DNA from: Aquibium microcysteis
Lineage (GTDB): Bacteria > Pseudomonadota > Alphaproteobacteria > Rhizobiales > Rhizobiaceae
Reading direction: 5' to 3'
DNA length: 64,000 nucleotides
Assembly: GCF_014495845.1 (NCBI RefSeq)
Contig: NZ_CP061080.1
Coordinates: forward strand, 2,903,001-2,967,000
The translations under genes and the position numbers were made by a program. Shown in pieces: positions 53,761-64,000 of the stretch. The first letter of the stretch is position 1. Every line of letters begins with the position of its first letter. The notes beneath the pieces were generated by a model. It had not been told where the DNA came from and ran no database searches. It saw nothing but the letters and a program-made list of their open reading frames with translations.

Positions 53761-54126
53761 CTAGGCCTCGACCCCGTCGATCATCTGGCGCGCCATGTCG
53801 CGGATCGGCGCCGCGGCGACCGCCGCCAGGTTCTCGAGGATGTCCATGGCTTCAGCCTCCTCGCCCATGCCGCGCAGCGCCACGGCGAGGAAGAAATAGA
53901 TCGCGTCGCTGGGCTCGGCGGCGTTGAGGATCGCGGCGGCACCGCGCGCGTCGCCCCGCGCCATCTTCACGAGCCCCTGCCCCAGCGGGCCGATCTCCGC
54001 CCCCGGCCGCGCCAGCGCGAGCGCGGCGAAGATGGCGTCCGCGCCTTCAAGCGTGCCGCGTGAGAGCCCCAGCATTCCGATCGACGCGAGAAGCCGCGTC
54101 TCGTCGCTCGTCAGCAGTTCCGCCAC
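53761..54126 (-). CDS. HrpB1/HrpK-like TPR protein, 121 aa
   Basis: The 121-residue helical protein with a degenerate TPR pattern (LLASIGMLGLSRGTLEGADAIFAALALARPG, ALVKMARGD-like second repeat, FFLAVALRGMGEEAEAMDILENL third repeat) resembles the small HrpB1/HrpK family found in type III secretion clusters. The start is a GTG at 54126 with a poorly spaced ribosome site. It diverges from sctV and shares a 150-bp promoter region with it, which supports a role in the same apparatus, perhaps as a chaperone. The family call is tentative. Confidence 0.6.
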   Translation of the reverse strand: MAELLTSDETRLLASIGMLGLSRGTLEGADAIFAALALARPGAEIGPLGQGLVKMARGDARGAAAILNAAEPSDAIYFFLAVALRGMGEEAEAMDILENLAAVAAAPIRDMARQMIDGVEA

Positions 54127-54279: not shown

Positions 54280-56388
54280 GTGTTCACCAGATTTTTGCGT
54301 GCGGCGTCGCAGCGCAACGACGTCATCCTCGCCTTCCTGCTGATCTGCATCGTCTTCATGATGATCCTGCCGCTGCCCACCTTCCTGGTGGACATCCTGA
54401 TCGGCATCAACCTCACGCTCTCGGCCATCCTTCTGATGGTCGCGATCTATCTCTCCGACATCGTCGCCTTTTCCGCCTTTCCGGCGATCCTGCTCCTGAC
54501 GACGCTGTTCCGGCTCGCTTTGTCGATCACCACCACGCGCCTGATCCTCCTCGACGCCGATGCGGGTCAGATCGTCGAGACCTTCGGCAAGTTCGTCGTC
54601 TCCGGCAATCTCGTCGTCGGCGCCGTCATCTTCCTGATCCTGACCATCGTCAACTTCATGGTCATCACCAAGGGGGCCGAGCGCGTCGCGGAAGTCTCGG
54701 CGCGGTTCTCGCTGGACGCGATGCCCGGCAAGCAGATGTCGATCGATTCCGACATGCGCGCCGGCCAGATCGACATGAACGAGGCCAAGAGCCGCCGCGG
54801 CAAGCTCGAGAAGGAATCGCAACTCTACGGCGCCATGGACGGCGCCATGAAGTTCGTGAAGGGCGACGCCATCGCCGGCCTGATCATCATCGCCGTCAAC
54901 ATCATCGGCGGTATCCTGATCGGCACCACCCAGCGCGGCATGGACATCGGCGAGGCGCTGAACCTCTATGCCATCCTCACGATCGGCGACGGGCTGGTGT
55001 CACAGATCCCGGCGCTGTTCATCTCCATCACCGCGGGCTTCATCGTCACCCGCGTCTCGTCGGAGAAGAACGAGAATCTCGGCTCCGACATCGCCGGACA
55101 GCTCATCAACGAACCCAAGGCGCTGCTGATCGCGGGCGGCATCTGCGTCGGCTTCGCCCTGATCCCCGGCTTCCCGACCATCACCTTCCTGCTGCTGGCC
55201 GCGCTGGTGGGCGGCGGCGGCTACATGATCATCCGCCGTCGCAAATCCGACACCCGCGAGCGAGAGGGAACCCGCATGCCGGCCCTGTCCGCGGCGGCCG
55301 GCCCGGTCGGACAGGCGCCGCGCTTCCCCGACGAGGAGGAGGACACCCGCCCCGTCGAGCCGGTCACCTTCGCCCTGACGGTGCCGCTGATGGTCGACAT
55401 CGCCGCATCGGTGCGTTCGGCGATCAAGCCCGAGCGGCTCGACCGCGAGGTCGCCCGCGTGCGGCGGGCGCTCTATTTCGACCTCGGCGTGCCCTTTCCC
55501 GGCATCCACCTGCGGCTGAACGAGAACCTCGCCGCCGGCCACTACCGCATCATGGTCAACGAGATTCCGGTCGCCGCCGGTGCGGCACGGGCGGACCACT
55601 TCATCGTGCGCGAGAGCGAAGCCAACCTGAAGATGTTCGACATCCCCTATGAAAGGGGCGACGATTTCCTGCCGAACACGCCGAGCCTCTGGGTCCATAC
55701 CCGCCATCTCGGCCTCGTCGACCAGTCGGGCATCCAGCGCATGACGCTGCCCAGCATGCTGACCTACCACCTCGCCCACGTTCTCAAGGACCATGCGGGG
55801 CAGTTCCTCGGCGTGCAGGAGGCGATGTTCCTCATGAACCAGATGGAGAAGAACTTCGCCGAGCTCGTGCGCGAGGCGACCCGCGCGCTGCCCATCATCA
55901 CCATCACGGACGTCCTCAAGCGCCTCGTCGGCGAAGGCATCTCGATCCGCGACATGCGCACCATCCTGGAGGCGCTGGTGGAATGGGGCCAGCGCGAGAA
56001 GGACCCGATCCTGCTCTCCGAACATGTTCGCGGCGCGCTCTCCCGCTACATCACCTACAAGTACTCCGGCGGCCAGAACGTCATCCCGGCCTATCTGCTC
56101 GGCAAGGAAGTCGAGGACGAGGTCCGCGGCGCCGTGCGCCAGACCTCGGCGGCTTCCTACCTGGCGCTCTCGCCCGACTTCCACCGTCGCCTGATGGAGG
56201 CGCTGAAGGCCTCCATCGGCGACCTCAGCGGCCATGCGCTGACCCCGGTCCTGCTCGCGCCGATGGACATCCGCCGCTTCATGCGCAAGATCGTCGAGCG
56301 GGACTTCCCCGAACTCGCGATCCTGTCCTTCCAGGAGCTGGCGCCCGACGTCAGCATCCAGCCGCTCGACCGAATCCGCATCACCTGA
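54280..56388 (+). CDS. sctV: Type III secretion export gate protein SctV
   Basis: The 702-residue protein belongs to the FlhA/LcrD family. Around eight membrane helices occupy residues 15-330, including MILPLPTFLVDILIGINL, FRLALSITTTRLILL and the FHIPEP signature RVAEVSARFSLDAMPGKQM at about 135-153. The C-terminal 350 residues are the cytoplasmic nonamer-forming domain. It resembles SctV (HrcV, YscV) more than FlhA, and no flagellar gene is nearby. It uses the proton gradient to drive protein export. A GTG at 54280, nine bases after AGGAGG, is preferred to an ATG at 54196 with no ribosome site. Confidence 0.88.
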   Translation: MFTRFLRAASQRNDVILAFLLICIVFMMILPLPTFLVDILIGINLTLSAILLMVAIYLSDIVAFSAFPAILLLTTLFRLALSITTTRLILLDADAGQIVETFGKFVVSGNLVVGAVIFLILTIVNFMVITKGAERVAEVSARFSLDAMPGKQMSIDSDMRAGQIDMNEAKSRRGKLEKESQLYGAMDGAMKFVKGDAIAGLIIIAVNIIGGILIGTTQRGMDIGEALNLYAILTIGDGLVSQIPALFISITAGFIVTRVSSEKNENLGSDIAGQLINEPKALLIAGGICVGFALIPGFPTITFLLLAALVGGGGYMIIRRRKSDTREREGTRMPALSAAAGPVGQAPRFPDEEEDTRPVEPVTFALTVPLMVDIAASVRSAIKPERLDREVARVRRALYFDLGVPFPGIHLRLNENLAAGHYRIMVNEIPVAAGAARADHFIVRESEANLKMFDIPYERGDDFLPNTPSLWVHTRHLGLVDQSGIQRMTLPSMLTYHLAHVLKDHAGQFLGVQEAMFLMNQMEKNFAELVREATRALPIITITDVLKRLVGEGISIRDMRTILEALVEWGQREKDPILLSEHVRGALSRYITYKYSGGQNVIPAYLLGKEVEDEVRGAVRQTSAASYLALSPDFHRRLMEALKASIGDLSGHALTPVLLAPMDIRRFMRKIVERDFPELAILSFQELAPDVSIQPLDRIRIT

Positions 56389-56403
56389 CGGCCGGAGGAG
56401 GAC

Positions 56404-57444
56404 GTGACCTCGACGGCCGCGACGCCGGAACGAAGCACGCGGGAGGCCGCCCGCCTGCTCGGATTCCGCGCCGCCCTCTTCGCGCTCGTCGCGGCGATCG
56501 CCCAGGCGCTCGCGCTGGTCCTCCTCGCTCCGGCCTTCGACGGAGCGCCGAGGCTCGCGCTCGCCCTTCTCGTCGCCGCGGGTCCCCTGCTGGCGGCGTT
56601 CCTTCCGGTCGCGACGATCCTGCAGCCGCTCGCCTGGGCGGGCATCTTCTTCTCCGCCCTGTCGACGGCCGGAGTGGCGGTCTCCGCGCTGCCCACAGCA
56701 GACCCGGCCGGATGGACGGCGAGCGATCTGGCCGTCGCCTTCGCCGGCTTCGCCTACTGGCCGCTCGTCGCGAGCAGCCTTTCGGCAGGACGCGCGCTGG
56801 ACGATCTGGCGCACCGGTCGGCGTTGATGGCATCGCTGCAGCGCCCTGGCCGGTCGGCCGCAACGGCCGTGGACGGCAGGCTCGCAGGGTCGGCAGGCGC
56901 TCTCGCGCTCTACGCCCTCGCTGCGGCAATCGTTCTCCTGTCGGCGCTCTTCCTCGCAGCGACGCTGATGCAGCGCCGAGCTTCCCTCGAATGGCTGATC
57001 TCGACCCCCGCCCACGTCGCGATCATCGTCCTGTTCTGCGCGATCTGCGTCCTCCTCACCCAGTCCTGGCGCGATCACCTGCGCGCCGCGATGCGCGCCG
57101 AATCCGCCGAGCCCGGTGCCGTGGAAGCCGCGAGGCGGCGCGCGGCGGCGCAGCGGCGGCTGCTGCGCACCCTGATCGGCCTCCTTCCGGTCCTCGGATT
57201 CCTCGGCACCGTCGTCGGCATCATTCAGGCGCTTGCCAGTCTGCCGGTCGCGCTCGCGGATCAGCCCGCCACGCAGGGCGCCGGACTGGCCGAAAGCCTC
57301 CGCGGCATCGCCACCGCCTTCGAGACGACGCTGCTCGGACTGGTCGGGTCGATCGCCGCGACGCTGGCGCTCGCCGCCGTCGAGCGCGCCGAGGCGATCG
57401 GCGAGGCCGACGCCGCCCCCAGAGCCCCGGAGCCGGAGCCGTGA
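56404..57444 (+). CDS. MotA/TolQ/ExbB-like proton-channel protein
   Basis: The 346-residue protein starts at a GTG after GGAGGAGGAC. It has several membrane helices in the first 220 residues, a charged cytoplasmic stretch rich in Arg and Ala (RAAMRAESAEPGAVEAARRRAAAQRR), and then the two-helix channel core of the MotA/ExbB family: IGLLPVLGFLGTVVGIIQAL near 258 and LRGIATAFETTLLGLVGSIA near 300. The family forms pentameric ion channels that power TonB, Tol or flagella. It lies 15 bases after sctV and overlaps the next gene by GTGA. Confidence 0.82.
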   Translation: MTSTAATPERSTREAARLLGFRAALFALVAAIAQALALVLLAPAFDGAPRLALALLVAAGPLLAAFLPVATILQPLAWAGIFFSALSTAGVAVSALPTADPAGWTASDLAVAFAGFAYWPLVASSLSAGRALDDLAHRSALMASLQRPGRSAATAVDGRLAGSAGALALYALAAAIVLLSALFLAATLMQRRASLEWLISTPAHVAIIVLFCAICVLLTQSWRDHLRAAMRAESAEPGAVEAARRRAAAQRRLLRTLIGLLPVLGFLGTVVGIIQALASLPVALADQPATQGAGLAESLRGIATAFETTLLGLVGSIAATLALAAVERAEAIGEADAAPRAPEPEP

Positions 57445-57917
57445 CGCCCGCCGCAAGCGAAGCGGAAGCGGGTGGCGCCGCCGCGATGGCCGACCTGATC
57501 CTGGGCACGACGGGCATCCTGCTGGTGCTGCTCGTGACGCTCGGCCCGGCCGTCCTGTCGCGCCAGGCATCCGCGACGGCGCGGGAGCCCCTGGCATTGC
57601 CGCCGGGCTTCTCGACCGAGGGCCATGCCGGGCCGATCCTGTTCGCCGGTGCCGGCGGGCTGGCCCTGGCCCCGGGCGGAACCGTGATCCCCGTTTCGGC
57701 CATCGCCACGAGTCCGCTGCCCGCGGGACCGGGAACCGCCCGCCCGCTCCTGATCGTCGCACCGGACGGAATCGAGGCTGCCTTCCATGCCAGCGCGCGC
57801 CTGGCGGCGCTGGGAGCGACTGCGATCGACCGCGTCCGCGTCGACCGCACCTGCGCCGAAATCCGCCGGATCGAACGTCGCGGAACAGGTCTCGTTCTCG
57901 TCTGCGGGGGCCGGTGA
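57441..57917 (+). CDS. ExbD/MotB-like single-helix protein, 158 aa
   Basis: The 158-residue protein starts at a GTG overlapping the upstream stop (GTGA). It has one N-terminal membrane helix preceded by an Asp (ADLILGTTGILLVLLVTLGP) and a periplasmic domain of about 115 residues with a Cys pair (RTCAEIRRIERRG...LVCGG). The topology matches a MotB/ExbD partner of the preceding channel protein. Sequence similarity to those families is weak outside the helix, so the identification rests on topology and gene order. Confidence 0.6.
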   Translation: MTPAASEAEAGGAAAMADLILGTTGILLVLLVTLGPAVLSRQASATAREPLALPPGFSTEGHAGPILFAGAGGLALAPGGTVIPVSAIATSPLPAGPGTARPLLIVAPDGIEAAFHASARLAALGATAIDRVRVDRTCAEIRRIERRGTGLVLVCGGR

Positions 57918-58714
57918 CCGGCCGGCGGCCTTCGAGACGCGGACCGTCCGCGCCGCACGCCGGGGCGGAACCGCTGGCGGGCGTTTCCTTCCTGACGATC
58001 CTCCTCGACGTGTCGGCGAACCTGCTCTGCGTCGTGGTCCTGCTGCTGACGGTGTCCGCCGCCGGCCGGCCGCCGCGGCCGGCGTCCGCCGAGACAGGCT
58101 TCCCGATCCGGCCCGGCGAAGTCGTCGAACCGGCGGGCCTCGTCGAGGCGTTCCGGCTTCGCGCGGTGCGCGACGCATCCATCGCCACGGTGGACCTGCG
58201 GCGCGACCATGTCGAGGTGAAGCCGGCCGGGACGCCGCCGGCGGACGCCGTGCGCCTGTCCCTCGCAGCGCCCGCTCTCGCATCGGACCTGCGCGGACTG
58301 GTGTCGCCCGCCGCCGGAGGCATCCTCGTCTTCGTCTTCGCGCAGGACGGCCATCCGACGCTGCGCCGGGCGCTCGACGCCGTCGCCCTGCCCGTCACCG
58401 AGATCGACGTGCCGCTCGCGCTGCGGGCGCCCGGCCCGGATGCAGGCTGGTCGGACGCCTACCTTGCGCTCTTCGGCCGGATCAACGACCCGGCGGCTTT
58501 CCCGGAAAGGCTGGCACGCATCATCGCCGGGGGTGGCGGAACCGGGAGTCCGGCAGGCGAGCCCGCTTCCGCCTCCGCTCGCACGGACGGGGTCTCGACG
58601 ACCCTCTGGGTCACCCTCGGTGCGGCGGGGCGCCTCTGTTTCCTCGCGCTGTCGGTCGGAGCGATCATGCTCGTCGGCCGCCTGCGGCCGCTCGCGGGCG
58701 GCGATCCCGCGTGA
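57914..58714 (+). CDS. ExbD/MotB-like protein with C-terminal second helix, 266 aa
   Basis: The 266-residue protein again starts at a GTG in a GTGA overlap. The N-terminal helix SFLTILLDVSANLLCVVVLLL contains Asp32 in the position of the proton-carrying Asp of ExbD (TPLIDVxxxLLxxF). A periplasmic domain of about 180 residues follows, and a second helix (LCFLALSVGAIMLVGRL) lies at the C-terminus, which ordinary ExbD/MotB proteins lack. It appears to be the second stator-like B subunit of the module after sctV. Confidence 0.6.
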   Translation: MTGRRPSRRGPSAPHAGAEPLAGVSFLTILLDVSANLLCVVVLLLTVSAAGRPPRPASAETGFPIRPGEVVEPAGLVEAFRLRAVRDASIATVDLRRDHVEVKPAGTPPADAVRLSLAAPALASDLRGLVSPAAGGILVFVFAQDGHPTLRRALDAVALPVTEIDVPLALRAPGPDAGWSDAYLALFGRINDPAAFPERLARIIAGGGGTGSPAGEPASASARTDGVSTTLWVTLGAAGRLCFLALSVGAIMLVGRLRPLAGGDPA

Positions 58715-58778: not shown

Positions 58779-60563
58779 TCAGGCCGCCGCGCGGCCGTGC
58801 CTCGTCTGCGGCATCCCGCCCGGCGCAGGGAACTCGAACTCGAATCTCGCGCCGCGCGGCGCCAGGTTCTGCGCCGTCAGCCGTCCGCCGAGCCAGTCCG
58901 TGTAGCGACGGGCGAGGCGCAGTCCGAGCCCCGCCCCTTCCTGGGACGCGCCGACACCGTCGCCGCTCATGATCCGGGCGAGGCGTTCAGGCGCGATGCC
59001 GGGGCCTTCGTCCGAAACGTCGACGACGATGCACGCGCCCTCCCGGCGGGCGCCGATCCGGATCGCACCGGCAGGCGGCGAATGACGGATCGCATTGTCG
59101 ATGACGGTATCGAGGATGTGTTCGACCACCGCCGGCTCCGGCGTCCGCAGTCCATCGGGTATAGCCAGCTCCGTCGCGAGCGAGTGGTGGAGGAGAGGCA
59201 GCCGGTGCGCGACCAGGACACGCCGCACGATGGCCGCCAGTTCGTCCGTCGGGCCGGCGGTCGACGGCCGCTGATCGCCGTCCGGCGCGATGAGGCCGGC
59301 GATGCGCACCATCAGCGCCTTGCAGGTCTCGCGCATCATCGCGAGCGTGGAGGTCAGCGTGCTCGCATCGAGATCGCCGCGCGCAGCCGCCGTCTCCAGC
59401 GCTTCGATCGTGTTGCTCACACCCGCGAGCGGGCTCCTGAGATCATGCGCCACCAGCATCATCAGGGTCTCGCGCTGGTCGAGCAGCTGCTCGACGGTCC
59501 TCGTCCTGGCCAGCACGCGCTGCTCGAGTTCGGACTTGACGCGCTCGGCCTCGGCCACCGCGGCGGAGACGCAGAGCGTCACGATGGCGAGAACCGCCAG
59601 GTAGATCTGCAGGTAGACCAGCGAGCGCCACGGCAATTCGGACGGAAACACCACGAAGCCGTTGAGGGTCCCCAACGAGGCGCCGGCCGTGACCAGAGCG
59701 ATCGCCGCCAGCGCTCCTCCGGCGCCGAAGCGGAAGGCCGCCCAGACGAGCAGCGGGGCGATCATGTAGGGTGTCGGCCACTCCGAAATGTGGTCGGTGA
59801 GATAAAGGCCGCAAAGGGCCTGGATCGCCAGGCACAGCGAGACCACCAGCGCGACGGCTTCCAGCGGCCGGCCGGGCACCGGGCTGCGGACGCGGTTCGA
59901 CAGGGCGAGAACCGTGAGCCCGGTGAAGATCAGGATGCCGGCCGCGTTGGCGACGTACCAGGTCAGCGCCACCTCGAAGAGGCCGTCGCTCTGCGTTCCG
60001 ACGAGGAACGAACTCGCGGTGACCCCGCAGACGACGCTGATCAGCGGCGGAAAGACCGGTGCGATGAGCAGGAAGCGGATGACGCCGCGGGTGTGGAAGA
60101 GGAACGACTGTCCATAGGCATGGCGTTCGATGAGGAAGGCGGTCAGCAGCGCCTCGCCCGTATTCGCCGCCGCGATGAGGATCGCCAGAAGGGCCGCGAC
60201 CTCCAGCGGCAGGCCGACCCCGACGTTGATGGCGAGGTTGACCGCGAAGGACCCGGCGCTGACGCTCGGCCAGTAGGCCCTCCCCTTCGCCAGGATCAGG
60301 CCCGTCGCGAATCCGGACGGCACCCAGACGGCTGCCGCATTCCACTGCACCGAAGCGGTCGAAAGCGACAACGCGCCGACCAGCACGTACACCAAGGCAT
60401 AGCCAAGGAGCCTGATTCCGTCCGCGCGCTCGTTCAAGTCCGCAAACCTCCCGCGCATTCGCGCCTGCCCGCGCTCGCAGAGCCGCGTAACGGCGGCCGA
60501 CACGGCCTCTTCGCAGGCCTCGCTCGAACCGTCCGCGTCACCCCGGCCTTCACCCCTCGTCAC
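58779..60563 (-). CDS. MASE1-domain sensor histidine kinase
   Basis: The 594-residue kinase has a multi-helix MASE1-like membrane sensor at about residues 50-330, a HisKA domain with the phospho-accepting His in LVAHDLRSPLAG (near residue 373) and an HATPase domain with DNAIRHS, DEGPGI and GAGLGL. A GTG at 60563 gives a 35-residue leader that keeps coding-like third positions; the ATG at 60458 is an alternative start. Its HisKA type usually pairs with OmpR-class regulators, none of which is nearby. Confidence 0.9.
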   Translation of the reverse strand: MTRGEGRGDADGSSEACEEAVSAAVTRLCERGQARMRGRFADLNERADGIRLLGYALVYVLVGALSLSTASVQWNAAAVWVPSGFATGLILAKGRAYWPSVSAGSFAVNLAINVGVGLPLEVAALLAILIAAANTGEALLTAFLIERHAYGQSFLFHTRGVIRFLLIAPVFPPLISVVCGVTASSFLVGTQSDGLFEVALTWYVANAAGILIFTGLTVLALSNRVRSPVPGRPLEAVALVVSLCLAIQALCGLYLTDHISEWPTPYMIAPLLVWAAFRFGAGGALAAIALVTAGASLGTLNGFVVFPSELPWRSLVYLQIYLAVLAIVTLCVSAAVAEAERVKSELEQRVLARTRTVEQLLDQRETLMMLVAHDLRSPLAGVSNTIEALETAAARGDLDASTLTSTLAMMRETCKALMVRIAGLIAPDGDQRPSTAGPTDELAAIVRRVLVAHRLPLLHHSLATELAIPDGLRTPEPAVVEHILDTVIDNAIRHSPPAGAIRIGARREGACIVVDVSDEGPGIAPERLARIMSGDGVGASQEGAGLGLRLARRYTDWLGGRLTAQNLAPRGARFEFEFPAPGGMPQTRHGRAAA

Positions 60564-60806: not shown

Positions 60807-61123
60807 TGAACCGACGGGAGGCACGTCTGGCGGTGCAAAGATCGGGTGGCGAATGGGGCGGAGAGCCCGGGGCGGCGCCCTTCCTCCCGTCCCGGCCGGT
60901 CGTCGCCGCGCGCTGGTCTCCGAGCCGCTCTCCCCGCGCCGCGAGCGCATCGGGAGCGGCCGGCCGACGGACGTGGGTCCGGCTTTCCTTTTGGCCGGCA
61001 GATCTTCCGGCACCCCTGGAGTGCCCGGCGACGGCGGACCCGAGGAGGCGGCCGGCGGCTGCGCCGTCCCCATCCTCCCATCCCGCGACGGCGGGCGCGA
61101 CTGTCGTTCGACCATCATGGTGA
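60807..61123 (+). CDS. Possible small protein, 105 aa
   Basis: The reading frame starts at an ATG eight bases after GGGGAG and ends by overlapping the next gene by 7 bases (ATGGTGA). The product is Arg/Pro/Ala-rich with no recognisable domain. The ribosome site and the overlap argue for translation, but overlapping frames across this GC-rich stretch look similar, so it may be spurious. Confidence 0.3.
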
Positions 61124-61479
61124 ACTCGATCAACAGCGGCAACGGCCCGCAGGTCCAGCCGCGCACAGGCGGCCCGGACAGGGGATCGCTCGCGGACGCC
61201 GTAACCTCCGCGCAGTCGCTCGCGCAGCTGCGCTTCAGCGCGGGCAACATGCGCGATGTTCCGCTTCAGGACGGCGCGCTCGGCGGCAGGACCGCGGAGT
61301 TCGTGCGTCTGCTCTCCCTCGGCATCGACGCGCTGTCCCCGGGCGAGACCCAGCAGGAAAAGGCGTCGGTGGGTGCGCGCCTTCGGCTCGAGGCGCTCGA
61401 CCGGATCGCCCTGTCGAAGGAAGAAATGGCGATCCTCGACGAGATCGTGACCACGATCACCGGAAGAAGCGGCCGATGA
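61117..61479 (+). CDS. Hypothetical protein, 120 aa
   Basis: I do not recognise this protein. Its first 25 residues are polar and Asn/Gln/Ser/Gly-rich (MVNSINSGNGPQVQPRTGG). The rest is helical, with LADAVTSAQSLAQLRFSAGN, RTAEFVRLLSLGIDAL and LRLEALDRIALSKEEMAILDEIV. No membrane segment. No ribosome site of its own is visible; translation may be coupled to the preceding frame. It ends in an ATGA overlap with the next gene. The locus suggests a secretion-system accessory or substrate, which is inference. Confidence 0.6.
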   Translation: MVNSINSGNGPQVQPRTGGPDRGSLADAVTSAQSLAQLRFSAGNMRDVPLQDGALGGRTAEFVRLLSLGIDALSPGETQQEKASVGARLRLEALDRIALSKEEMAILDEIVTTITGRSGR

Positions 61480-62501
61480 TGTCGCTGCTCGATCTACGGC
61501 GGGCGGTCCTCGATTCGCAGCCGGCCGCCGTCAACAGGCTCGCAAGGTCCCTTCTGGCGGCCTTTCAGCGCGAAGCCGGGCCAGGCGAAAACTGGCGCCC
61601 CGTGGCGCGCCGCCATCTCCACGCGATGGCTGCGCACGCGCTGCTGGAGGAACGCGCGCTCGGCGAGGAGCGCGCCATGGCCTTCGTGGCAAGCACGCTG
61701 GCGCCGCTCGCCCGCCTTGCGCCACTCTATCGCGGCGCCGGCGAAACCGATCTGGCCGGACTGGCCGGCCTCGTCGAGGGGATCGGATCGGAGCGGCTGG
61801 CGGACGAGGCGCGCCTGCATGCCCTGGGCCAAGCCGGCAACGTCCTGCGGGAGGCCGTCTCCCGCGCGCGGGAAAGAGGCGGCACCGCCTCGCCCGGCCC
61901 CGGTCCCGCGGACCGGGAGGTGAAGGCGGCGTTGCGCCGTCTGCTTTCCGTCGCGGCGCCGGCGCTGCGGTTCGAGCTGGCGCTCGACGCATCGCGCTTC
62001 ATCGCGTCGCAGGCCGCGAGGCTGCCTCTGTCGACCCTCGCGCATACGCCCTACGAGGAGATGCTCGTCCGCGAGCTCGACCTCCTTCAAGGCCTCGTCG
62101 CGGCCTATCTGGACGAGCGCTGGTTCCGCAACGGTCGCTACGTGACCCTGTTCTCGACGATTCCGGCGGAGGTCCTTGCTCCAGTCGGACGCGCCGTTCG
62201 CGAGACCGGCGACGACCGCCTCTTGCGCGCCACCGCTTCGGCCATCCTGGTTCCGGCACTCGATCGGCTCGACCAGCTGGAGCGCGGCGACCTCGACGCG
62301 GACGCGTTCGCGACGGTCGCGGAGACGGGGCGCCGGCTCGCGGACTGGATCGAGAGGATGATCGCGGCGGATACGTCGCTCACGAGCCAGGATCCGCGCA
62401 GGATCGGTCTGGACCGGCTTCGGAGCAGCCATGGACCGTCCATGGACGCGCTTCTCCTCGATCTGCGCGGGAGGTGCTTCGATGCCGACCGTTCGGAATG
62501 A
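61476..62501 (+). CDS. Hypothetical all-helical protein, 341 aa
   Basis: I do not recognise this protein. It is almost entirely helical and Ala/Leu/Arg-rich, has no signal peptide and no membrane helix. The N-terminus is MMSLLDLRRAVLDSQPAAVNRLARSLLAAFQ, and the C-terminal half contains HTPYEEMLVRELDLLQGLVAAYLDERWF. It overlaps the preceding gene by four bases and the next by 20. By size and position it could be a soluble regulator or sorting-platform-like component of the secretion apparatus, but there is no sequence evidence for that. Confidence 0.7.
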   Translation: MMSLLDLRRAVLDSQPAAVNRLARSLLAAFQREAGPGENWRPVARRHLHAMAAHALLEERALGEERAMAFVASTLAPLARLAPLYRGAGETDLAGLAGLVEGIGSERLADEARLHALGQAGNVLREAVSRARERGGTASPGPGPADREVKAALRRLLSVAAPALRFELALDASRFIASQAARLPLSTLAHTPYEEMLVRELDLLQGLVAAYLDERWFRNGRYVTLFSTIPAEVLAPVGRAVRETGDDRLLRATASAILVPALDRLDQLERGDLDADAFATVAETGRRLADWIERMIAADTSLTSQDPRRIGLDRLRSSHGPSMDALLLDLRGRCFDADRSE

Positions 62502-63162
62502 GCAGTCCAGCCATCGCGCCACCCCTCGGCCGGTGGTCGACCGGCGCACCTTCGTGGCCATGGTCCTCTCGGTCGCCGCGACGGGATGCGCGAGCGACGG
62601 CACCGATGGCGAACTGCTGGAGGTCGACTATGCGCGGCCGGTCTTCGACGAGGCGCATTTCGTTCCGGGTGTCCCCTCCGGAACCCTGCGCCGGAAGCAC
62701 CGGCGGCAGGTCGTCGCCTATCTGACCGCCGAGCAGCCGGGGACGGTGGTGGTTGAGACCGGAGCGCGCTTCCTCTACCTCGTGCAGCCCGGCGGCCGCG
62801 CGATCCGCTACGGGATCGGCATCGGTCGCGAAGGCTTTCTGTGGAAGGGTCGGGCGACGGTGGGTGCGAAGCGCGCCTGGCCGACCTGGACGCCGCCCGC
62901 CGAGATGATCGCACGCGATCCGCGGCTGGGGGCCTTCGGCGGGGGAGCCGGAGGAATGAGCGGCGGCACCGACAATCCGCTCGGGGCGCGTGCCCTCTAC
63001 CTCCACCGCGACGGTCGCGACACGCTCTACCGCATCCACGGCACGAACGACGCAGGGTCCCTCGGCTCGGAGGTCACCGCCGGCTGCGTCCGGATGCTGA
63101 ACGTCGACGTGATCGATCTGTACGACCGCGTTCCGCAGGGTGCGACGGTCGTCGTCCTGTGA
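62482..63162 (+). CDS. L,D-transpeptidase (YkuD domain), probable lipoprotein
   Basis: The 226-residue protein begins with a twin-arginine-like leader (VVDRRTFVAMVLSVAATGC) with a lipobox-like end (Cys36). The YkuD domain shows VVETGARFLYLVQPGGRAIRYGIGIG, PTWTPPAEMI and the active-site block YRIHGTNDAGSLG followed by VTAGCVRML, where the usual Ser/His before Gly-Cys is replaced by Ala. It cross-links peptidoglycan in the periplasm. GGAGG lies seven bases upstream of the ATG at 62482. Wall-modifying enzymes often accompany envelope-spanning machines. Confidence 0.92.
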   Translation: MPTVRNEQSSHRATPRPVVDRRTFVAMVLSVAATGCASDGTDGELLEVDYARPVFDEAHFVPGVPSGTLRRKHRRQVVAYLTAEQPGTVVVETGARFLYLVQPGGRAIRYGIGIGREGFLWKGRATVGAKRAWPTWTPPAEMIARDPRLGAFGGGAGGMSGGTDNPLGARALYLHRDGRDTLYRIHGTNDAGSLGSEVTAGCVRMLNVDVIDLYDRVPQGATVVVL

Positions 63163-63518: not shown

Positions 63519-64000
63519 TCAGATCTGGTAGCGCTGCCGGCGCGAGAGCCCCTTGCGGATCTGGTCGGCGACGTCCTGCGCCCATTCCGGCAGCTGCGTT
63601 CCCTTCCGCAGCAGATCCTCGACCGACTTCTCGATCTCGCGCAGGGCCGAGGTGAGCGCGAGCAGCCAGGCCATGAGTTTGACCGCTTCCTTCTTCTCCA
63701 CGCGGGCGAACAGGTCCTGCAGCGCCTTGAGCAGGCGGGCATTGGCGCCGATCGAGGTGAGGTAGGCAATCATCTCCTCCGGCGTCAGCTTGAACTCCTC
63801 GGCACCCGCAGCCGCGAGCTGCCCGGACGCCCGGCGGGCATCGGCGGCATGCGCCGGGTTCTCGTATGCGCGCGGAAAGGGCCAGCCCGGTATCATCGCG
63901 GCGTTGAGGATCACGGCGGCCAGCATCTCGCGCGAGACAGCCTGATCCGGGCGGTTGCCCAGGGCCGCGATGGCGGAGAGGAACGCCTCTCTCGCGACGG
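63519..64000 (-). CDS. Hypothetical protein, 5' end beyond window
   Basis: The reverse-strand frame stays open from the stop at 63519 to the window edge. An internal ATG at 63926 has no ribosome site, and coding-like sequence continues upstream of it (AREAFLSAIAALGNRPDQAV), so the true start lies outside. The visible 160 residues include ILNAAMIPGWPFPRAYENPA and a helical, charged C-terminus (RVEKKEAVKLMAWLLALTSALREIEKSVEDLLRKG). I do not recognise it. Confidence 0.65.
   Translation of the reverse strand, partial: VAREAFLSAIAALGNRPDQAVSREMLAAVILNAAMIPGWPFPRAYENPAHAADARRASGQLAAAGAEEFKLTPEEMIAYLTSIGANARLLKALQDLFARVEKKEAVKLMAWLLALTSALREIEKSVEDLLRKGTQLPEWAQDVADQIRKGLSRRQRYQI

Follow-up and report, generated by a model that had tools for sequence, protein, structure and literature searches.

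The 64,000-nucleotide window analysed here (positions 2,903,001 to 2,967,000 of contig NZ_CP061080.1, assembly GCF_014495845.1), which sits in the 6.11-Mb single-contig genome of Aquibium microcysteis, contains four consecutive forward-strand genes that bring together the export gate of a type III secretion system (T3SS) and a candidate ion-driven stator module. The first of these genes, sctV (54280-56388), encodes a 702-aa export-gate subunit of a non-flagellar T3SS and is followed, after a spacer of 15 bases, by a gene that we term B (56404-57444; 346 aa), whose product is a channel subunit of the MotA/TolQ/ExbB family with its family core at residues 239-327. The module is completed by D1 (57441-57917; 158 aa) and D2 (57914-58714; 266 aa), which are joined to their predecessors through GTGA overlaps at 57441-57444 (B/D1) and 57914-57917 (D1/D2). 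A preliminary description made from the letters of the window (hereafter the sequence-only reading) had portrayed the four genes as an export gate with a dedicated ExbB/ExbD-like stator, and re-checking of the open reading frames (ORFs) returned the gene positions, the 15-base gap and both overlaps exactly as it had given them.

The assignment of sctV as a type III export gate was likewise confirmed, by profile matches to TIGR01399 (hrcV/SctV; 915.2 bits against a cut-off of 692.25) and to PF00771 (763 bits). Identity with flagellar flhA is ruled out by the model scores, the FlhA model reaching 631.9 bits under a cut-off of 772.1, and by the presence of another, flhA-like gene in the flagellar cluster, which is the genome's second FHIPEP gene (C1:3414157-3416133) and lies 457 kb away. 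The non-flagellar locus continues past the end of the window and spans about 50 kb in total, including the window part. SctU, SctT, SctN, SctJ and an SctI domain score above curated cut-offs; SctQ, SctL, the needle SctF and the gatekeeper SctW are best matches that nevertheless fall under cut-off, the SctD match is faint (19.4 bits, far under cut-off), and SctR and SctS were read from ORF translations. We have no doubt that the gene set, taken as a whole, is that of an injectisome. Its likeness to the Ysc type (AscV/LcrD class) lies in these above-cut-off and best matches and in an SctV that is 55-56% identical to AscV, LcrD and the SctV of Photobacterium; it differs from that type by the presence of B-D1-D2 after sctV and by its secretin, discussed below.

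Protein B, previously read as MotA/TolQ/ExbB-like, does match the MotA_ExbB profile (PF01618), with 42.8 bits over residues 239-327 and a gathering cut-off of 22.9 bits, a threshold also passed by the two relatives tested with it (24.4 bits for G102 and 28.5 bits for G780; 3/3 in all). Alignment of B with hhalign to the TolQ/ExbB-type proteins of its own genome gives a probability of 94%. Within the PF01618 family, threonines of the two core helices line the ion path, and threonines T269, T308 and T309 of B are invariant in 13/13 sequences. A simple hydropathy scan detects seven hydrophobic segments in B and seven or eight across the four sequences measured (eight in two relatives), more than the three or four helices of ExbB, TolQ and MotA. 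Kinship of B with MotA, together with the homology of the injectisome and the flagellar basal body, could point to a flagellum-like stator that rotates the whole injectisome. Such a role is opposed by the loop preceding the core helices, where MotA carries a large cytoplasmic part and the window B has only 39 residues, although the same loop measures 89 residues in G102 and 82 in G780; moreover, profile scans with Pfam and NCBIfam recognised no peptidoglycan-binding domain in D1 or D2. We consider rotation of the entire machine most improbable.

For D1 and D2, which had been described as single-helix, ExbD/MotB-like proteins, the outcome is divided. Neither protein matches any Pfam or NCBIfam profile at E up to 1, and PF02472 (ExbD/TolR) is unmatched at the same limit by D1 and D2 of the window, by D1 and D2 of G102 and by D2 of G780. 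Comparison of D1 and D2 by hhalign with 31 ExbD/TolR sequences (33 loci tried, 31 of which yielded sequence) gave 0.8% and 1.4%, respectively; profile and hhalign tests having both failed, we do not file D1 and D2 as ExbD by sequence. Foldseek returned no PDB match at E below 0.001 for either protein, and the fold matches to TolR/ExbD are weak, for D1 and perhaps for D2. Compared with each other, D1 and D2 give 6% (2% in global mode). The part of the description that stands is the topology, these weak fold matches and a suitably placed aspartate, which lies in or at the start of the N-terminal membrane helix and is invariant in 10/10 sequences of each protein: Asp18 near the helix start of D1, and Asp32 of D2, the ExbD-type residue already noted in the sequence-only reading, in its first helix. 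These aspartates, like the threonines in the core of B, do not vary even though the subgroups are only 20-30% identical. The single helix holds for D1, in the three sequences scanned, and does not hold for D2, which in 10/10 sequences has another hydrophobic helix at its C-terminus, together with a positive tail. Beyond their helices, D1 has a domain, presumably periplasmic, in which two cysteines are invariant, and D2 an alpha/beta domain that is likewise presumed to be periplasmic. Sizeable domains of this kind are retained by all ten D1 and by nine of the ten D2 proteins; the remaining D2, that of G887 (L064 6806-7132; 108 aa), keeps both helices and the aspartate and lacks the middle domain.

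Conservation of the arrangement was surveyed in overlapping genome samples with a profile of six SctVs from the clade described below, at E 1e-210 or better. The family sample (294 genomes) contained seven SctV matches, five of them above 1400 bits; the order sample (249 genomes) contained the own SctV, five full-length matches at 1327-1366 bits, one contig-cut match at 1148 and two at 704-706; and the class sample (372 genomes) contained the own SctV and eight matches at 830-984 bits. Two of the five genomes in the genus sample had a match, as did four of 15 in the family of G899 and three of 249 in the phylum sample, the matches of these last two samples having all been found in other samples already. 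In every uncut locus with an SctV at 1327 bits or more (10/10: G000, G177, G163, G088, G102, G746, G780, G899, G887 and G879), sctV is followed directly by B, D1 and D2. These ten loci, in which gene calls came from a simple home-made caller, span seven genera and three families in the numbering of the search tool, and module-bearing taxa include Aquibium sp. ELW1220 (G177), Rhizobium alvei, Aureimonas leprariae and Prosthecomicrobium sp. N25. Their B proteins measure 344 to 392 aa. An eleventh locus, in a Rhodobacteraceae metagenome-assembled genome (L029), has sctV and then B, inside which the contig ends; G901, where the contig stops within sctV, was left out. A tree of 24 sequences groups the 11 module-bearing SctVs together in a single clade (support 100/100).

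Outside this clade, no B or TolQ profile match was found within 1.5 kb of any of 12 other alphaproteobacterial SctVs (L043-L052, L059 and L060; 703-984 bits), and at five of those loci none was found over 20 kb either. The B, D1 and D2 profiles used in this neighbourhood scan were built from the clade itself, so that only their negatives are informative; an independent TolQ profile found B in five of the ten uncut loci. A first B alignment, run against 385 class genomes at E 1e-14 or better with the best five candidates per genome, retrieved the own genome only, and tblastn of two B proteins against plasmids yielded no match. A single-sequence search of 297 family genomes gave some match in at least 219 of them; among the matches listed, five reached E 3.2e-14 or better (G000, G177, G163, G088 and G102) and the next stood at 1.3e-6.

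Spacings across the ten loci run from -11 to 64 bases between sctV and B and from -4 to -11 between B and D1, and are -4 or -1 between D1 and D2 in nine of ten, the D2 start being uncertain in the tenth (G879). Pairwise distances of SctV, B, D1 and D2 correlate with r of 0.87-0.94, and none of 2000 permutations was as high for any of the six pairs, in a Mantel scheme that takes near-identical locus pairs as independent. The gene order is more than chance: it recurs in all ten uncut loci of the clade. An operon of unrelated function could still hitch-hike beside sctV and be kept by joint transfer of the cluster, since the scattered occurrence of the locus (5/294 family genomes, 4/15 in the family of G899) suggests that it moves as one block. 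Against this, gene order elsewhere in the cluster differs between Aquibium and the remaining loci, sctV-B-D1-D2 staying unbroken in all ten uncut ones, and the reading frames overlap between B and D1 and mostly at D2. We judge hitch-hiking to be very unlikely.

Also unusual is the outer part of the machine, the secretin of which is closest to GspD of type II secretion. The secretin of the Aquibium locus (L004 16858-19155, reverse strand; genome C1 2986858-2989155) scores 362 bits with GspD and 119 with YscC, and the same preference was found in 4/4 clade secretins tested (the others being L065 13151-15457, L033 17454-19718 and L036 10144-12363), with 332-370 bits for GspD and 90-119 for YscC; one of the four falls under the GspD cut-off of 351. 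The GspD-like secretin may represent a further secretin recruitment besides those in PMC3459982. It also lends interest to a Tol/Ton-like envelope module, in which the outer domains of D1 and D2 would exert force on the peptidoglycan, on the ring in the inner membrane or on the outer-membrane secretin, either at assembly or at opening, a role requiring co-expression with the injectisome and no contact with SctV. The weakly supported TolR/ExbD-like domains of D1, and perhaps of D2, and the two invariant cysteines of D1 are consistent with such a role, as is the finding that loss of Tol-Pal abolishes T3SS function in enterohaemorrhagic Escherichia coli and in Citrobacter (PMC12204202). On the other hand, the genes are joined to sctV in 10/10 uncut loci and not to the secretin, sctD or sctJ, and the G887 D2 lacks its middle domain. 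No TonB/TolA-like gene was noticed beside or directly after the module, in an inspection that included no profile search aimed at one; what lies downstream is a kinase gene or a small protein without known family. We deem an envelope role rather unlikely.

SctV retains charged residues of its own. The counterparts of FlhA residues D45, R85, R94, K203, D208 and D249, mapped through the FlhA of the same genome and a constant offset of two rather than through an aligned Salmonella FlhA, are identical in 10/10 clade SctVs. Eight charged FlhA residues were tested in PMC3139655, where three alanine changes stopped FlgD secretion; those three are among the six identical ones, and R206 and R270 of that list, as far as it was accessible, are not. 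Since six of the eight are kept in all ten SctVs, we rule out that the module replaces the proton function of SctV; retention of residues essential in FlhA makes the module an addition to, and not a replacement of, the gate's own use of protons. It follows too that extra power may be unnecessary, the residues kept being essential for export in FlhA (PMC3139655, PMC13308203), and the module might accordingly act as a proton conductor or membrane-energy sensor that times gate opening and performs no mechanical work. Two helices bearing aspartates could carry ions with no large output domain. Sizeable extra domains are nonetheless present in 10/10 D1 and 9/10 D2 proteins, and the characterised PF01618 complexes are, to our knowledge, motors. 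A purely conducting or sensing function appears quite improbable to us.

The reading that we favour, with an even measure of confidence, is that B, D1 and D2 constitute a dedicated ion-driven 5:2 rotary-type stator that is a fixed part of one injectisome clade and works with SctV. The idea in the sequence-only reading of a dedicated stator tied to the export gate is partly supported, having withstood both checks that could have overturned it: the 346-aa protein B does match its family profile, and the gene order is kept in related genomes. A B protein with the family core and two D proteins that each carry the aspartate lead naturally to a 5:1:1 motor, and our inference is that SctV, B, D1 and D2 work as a single machine, with the module as an ion conductor. 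A ring of B subunits would surround one D1 and one D2 helix, or a D-D dimer, and protons would pass between B and the aspartates of D1 and D2. The movement so produced, a turn or a tilt, would reach the export gate, in all likelihood inside the membrane by way of the second D2 helix, providing an energy source or a gate additional to the proton path of SctV. The weld to sctV and the reduced D2 of G887 favour a presumed output within the membrane, next to SctV, whereas the weakly supported TolR-like domain of D1 and its cysteine pair leave room for an envelope role. In its strongest form the proposal would place two proton-driven machines in one export apparatus, with a heteromeric B/D1/D2 stator coupled to SctV via the second D2 helix and export powered directly by a stator, as flagellar rotation is; this we advance tentatively, holding it somewhat less probable than its negation.

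The closest parallels to the proposed stator are found among motors, a class described as a pentamer around a dimeric axle in which rotation is powered by the flow of ions (PMC9389320). By gene arrangement the module can be likened to AglRQS of Myxococcus gliding, which comprises one TolQ-like and two TolR-like genes, each of the latter with a predicted membrane aspartate (PMC3169522, PMC9389320); AglQ and AglS match PF02472 (PMC3169522) whereas D1 and D2 do not, AglRQS serves gliding, and AglR, at 245 aa, is shorter than all ten B proteins. Dedicated stators already serve secretion: by description, GldLM/PorLM is a dedicated proton-driven motor for type IX protein secretion (PMC8986121), for which the accessible part of PMC9389320 reports no conclusive sequence kinship of GldLM with other complexes, and SiiAB of Salmonella SPI-4 is a pentamer:dimer motor tied to type I secretion (PMC12204202). 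With TolQR and ExbBD the module has in common the core helices and threonines of B and the weakly TolR/ExbD-like fold of D1, and it differs from them by the extra helices of B, the second helix of D2 and the cysteine pair of D1. The genome holds further members of the MotA_ExbB and ExbD families, including a B-D-D set and sets that resemble MotA, TolQR and ExbBD, which rules out the module as its only Tol or Exb system and means that the module need not stand in for them. The B-D-D set, at C1 4197177-4198390 (L074, L075 and L078), consists of one ExbB-like and two ExbD-family genes and is unlinked to the T3SS.

Upstream of sctV, as a divergent neighbour within the T3SS locus and outside the module, lies a gene for a 121-aa tetratricopeptide repeat (TPR) protein (53761-54126, reverse strand), perhaps an SctY-like chaperone, which matches NF052415 (SctY) at E 4e-4 and 20.8 bits, under the cut-off of 70; Rhizobium alvei has a TPR gene at the equivalent place (L031 6885-7208) that scores 25.4 bits with SctY, likewise under the cut-off. 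Directly after D2, on the opposite strand, the window carries a MASE1 histidine kinase gene (58779-60563), and Aquibium sp. ELW1220 has, judging from the first residues, a similar kinase gene at the equivalent place (L030 11863-13527). In 8/10 module loci D2 is instead followed by a gene for a small protein of about 90-100 aa (L031 12198-12500, L032 11069-11356, L033 11315-11605, L061 12383-12673, L062 12431-12721, L063 12611-12898, L064 7187-7456 and L065 12093-12386), of which the Aquibium microcysteis genome holds a displaced copy (L004 4587-4889). Blastp matched this copy in three of the five loci compared (L061, L062 and L065), the rest being alike by eye, and the four copies scanned gave no convincing family match. 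Elsewhere in the T3SS neighbourhood we observed an L,D-transpeptidase (YkuD) gene (62431-63162, forward strand), with a possibly related gene, by eye, in the Rhizobium alvei locus (L036 4880-5410), and two proteins of T3SS loci from different families (window 63519-63926, reverse strand, and L065 5034-5519) that share a stretch identical at 14/15 residues. For the gene at 61117-61479 we had suspected sctX, as in the Ysc type, but no match to an SctX family was obtained.

As far as searched, the union of this kind of motor with this kind of secretion system is new, each being known in its own right. In searches of 5.39 million open papers, read mostly as titles and abstract openings, none of these reported a T3SS with an ExbB/ExbD- or MotAB-like module, in line with the sequence-only reading, to which no type III system with such a stator was known. 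The accessible part of PMC3459982, on injectisome evolution, does not mention ExbB and names MotAB as flagellar; PMC12505986, on MotAB and its non-flagellar homologs, makes no mention of type III secretion, injectisome, T3SS or SctV; and a title cited in PMC10711112 states that type III secretion in Yersinia depends on the proton gradient and not on MotA and MotB. It is not settled how type III export is powered by the proton gradient, and a 2026 preprint argues for possible rotation of FlhA (PMC13308203). A natural T3SS whose export gate is genetically welded to genes for a recognised kind of proton motor offers a test case, in which each aspartate can be removed separately and export measured. 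If the favoured reading is true, type III would be added to those secretion systems that have a stator of their own, and D1 and D2 would represent a new heteromeric, partly two-helix form of the axle subunit.

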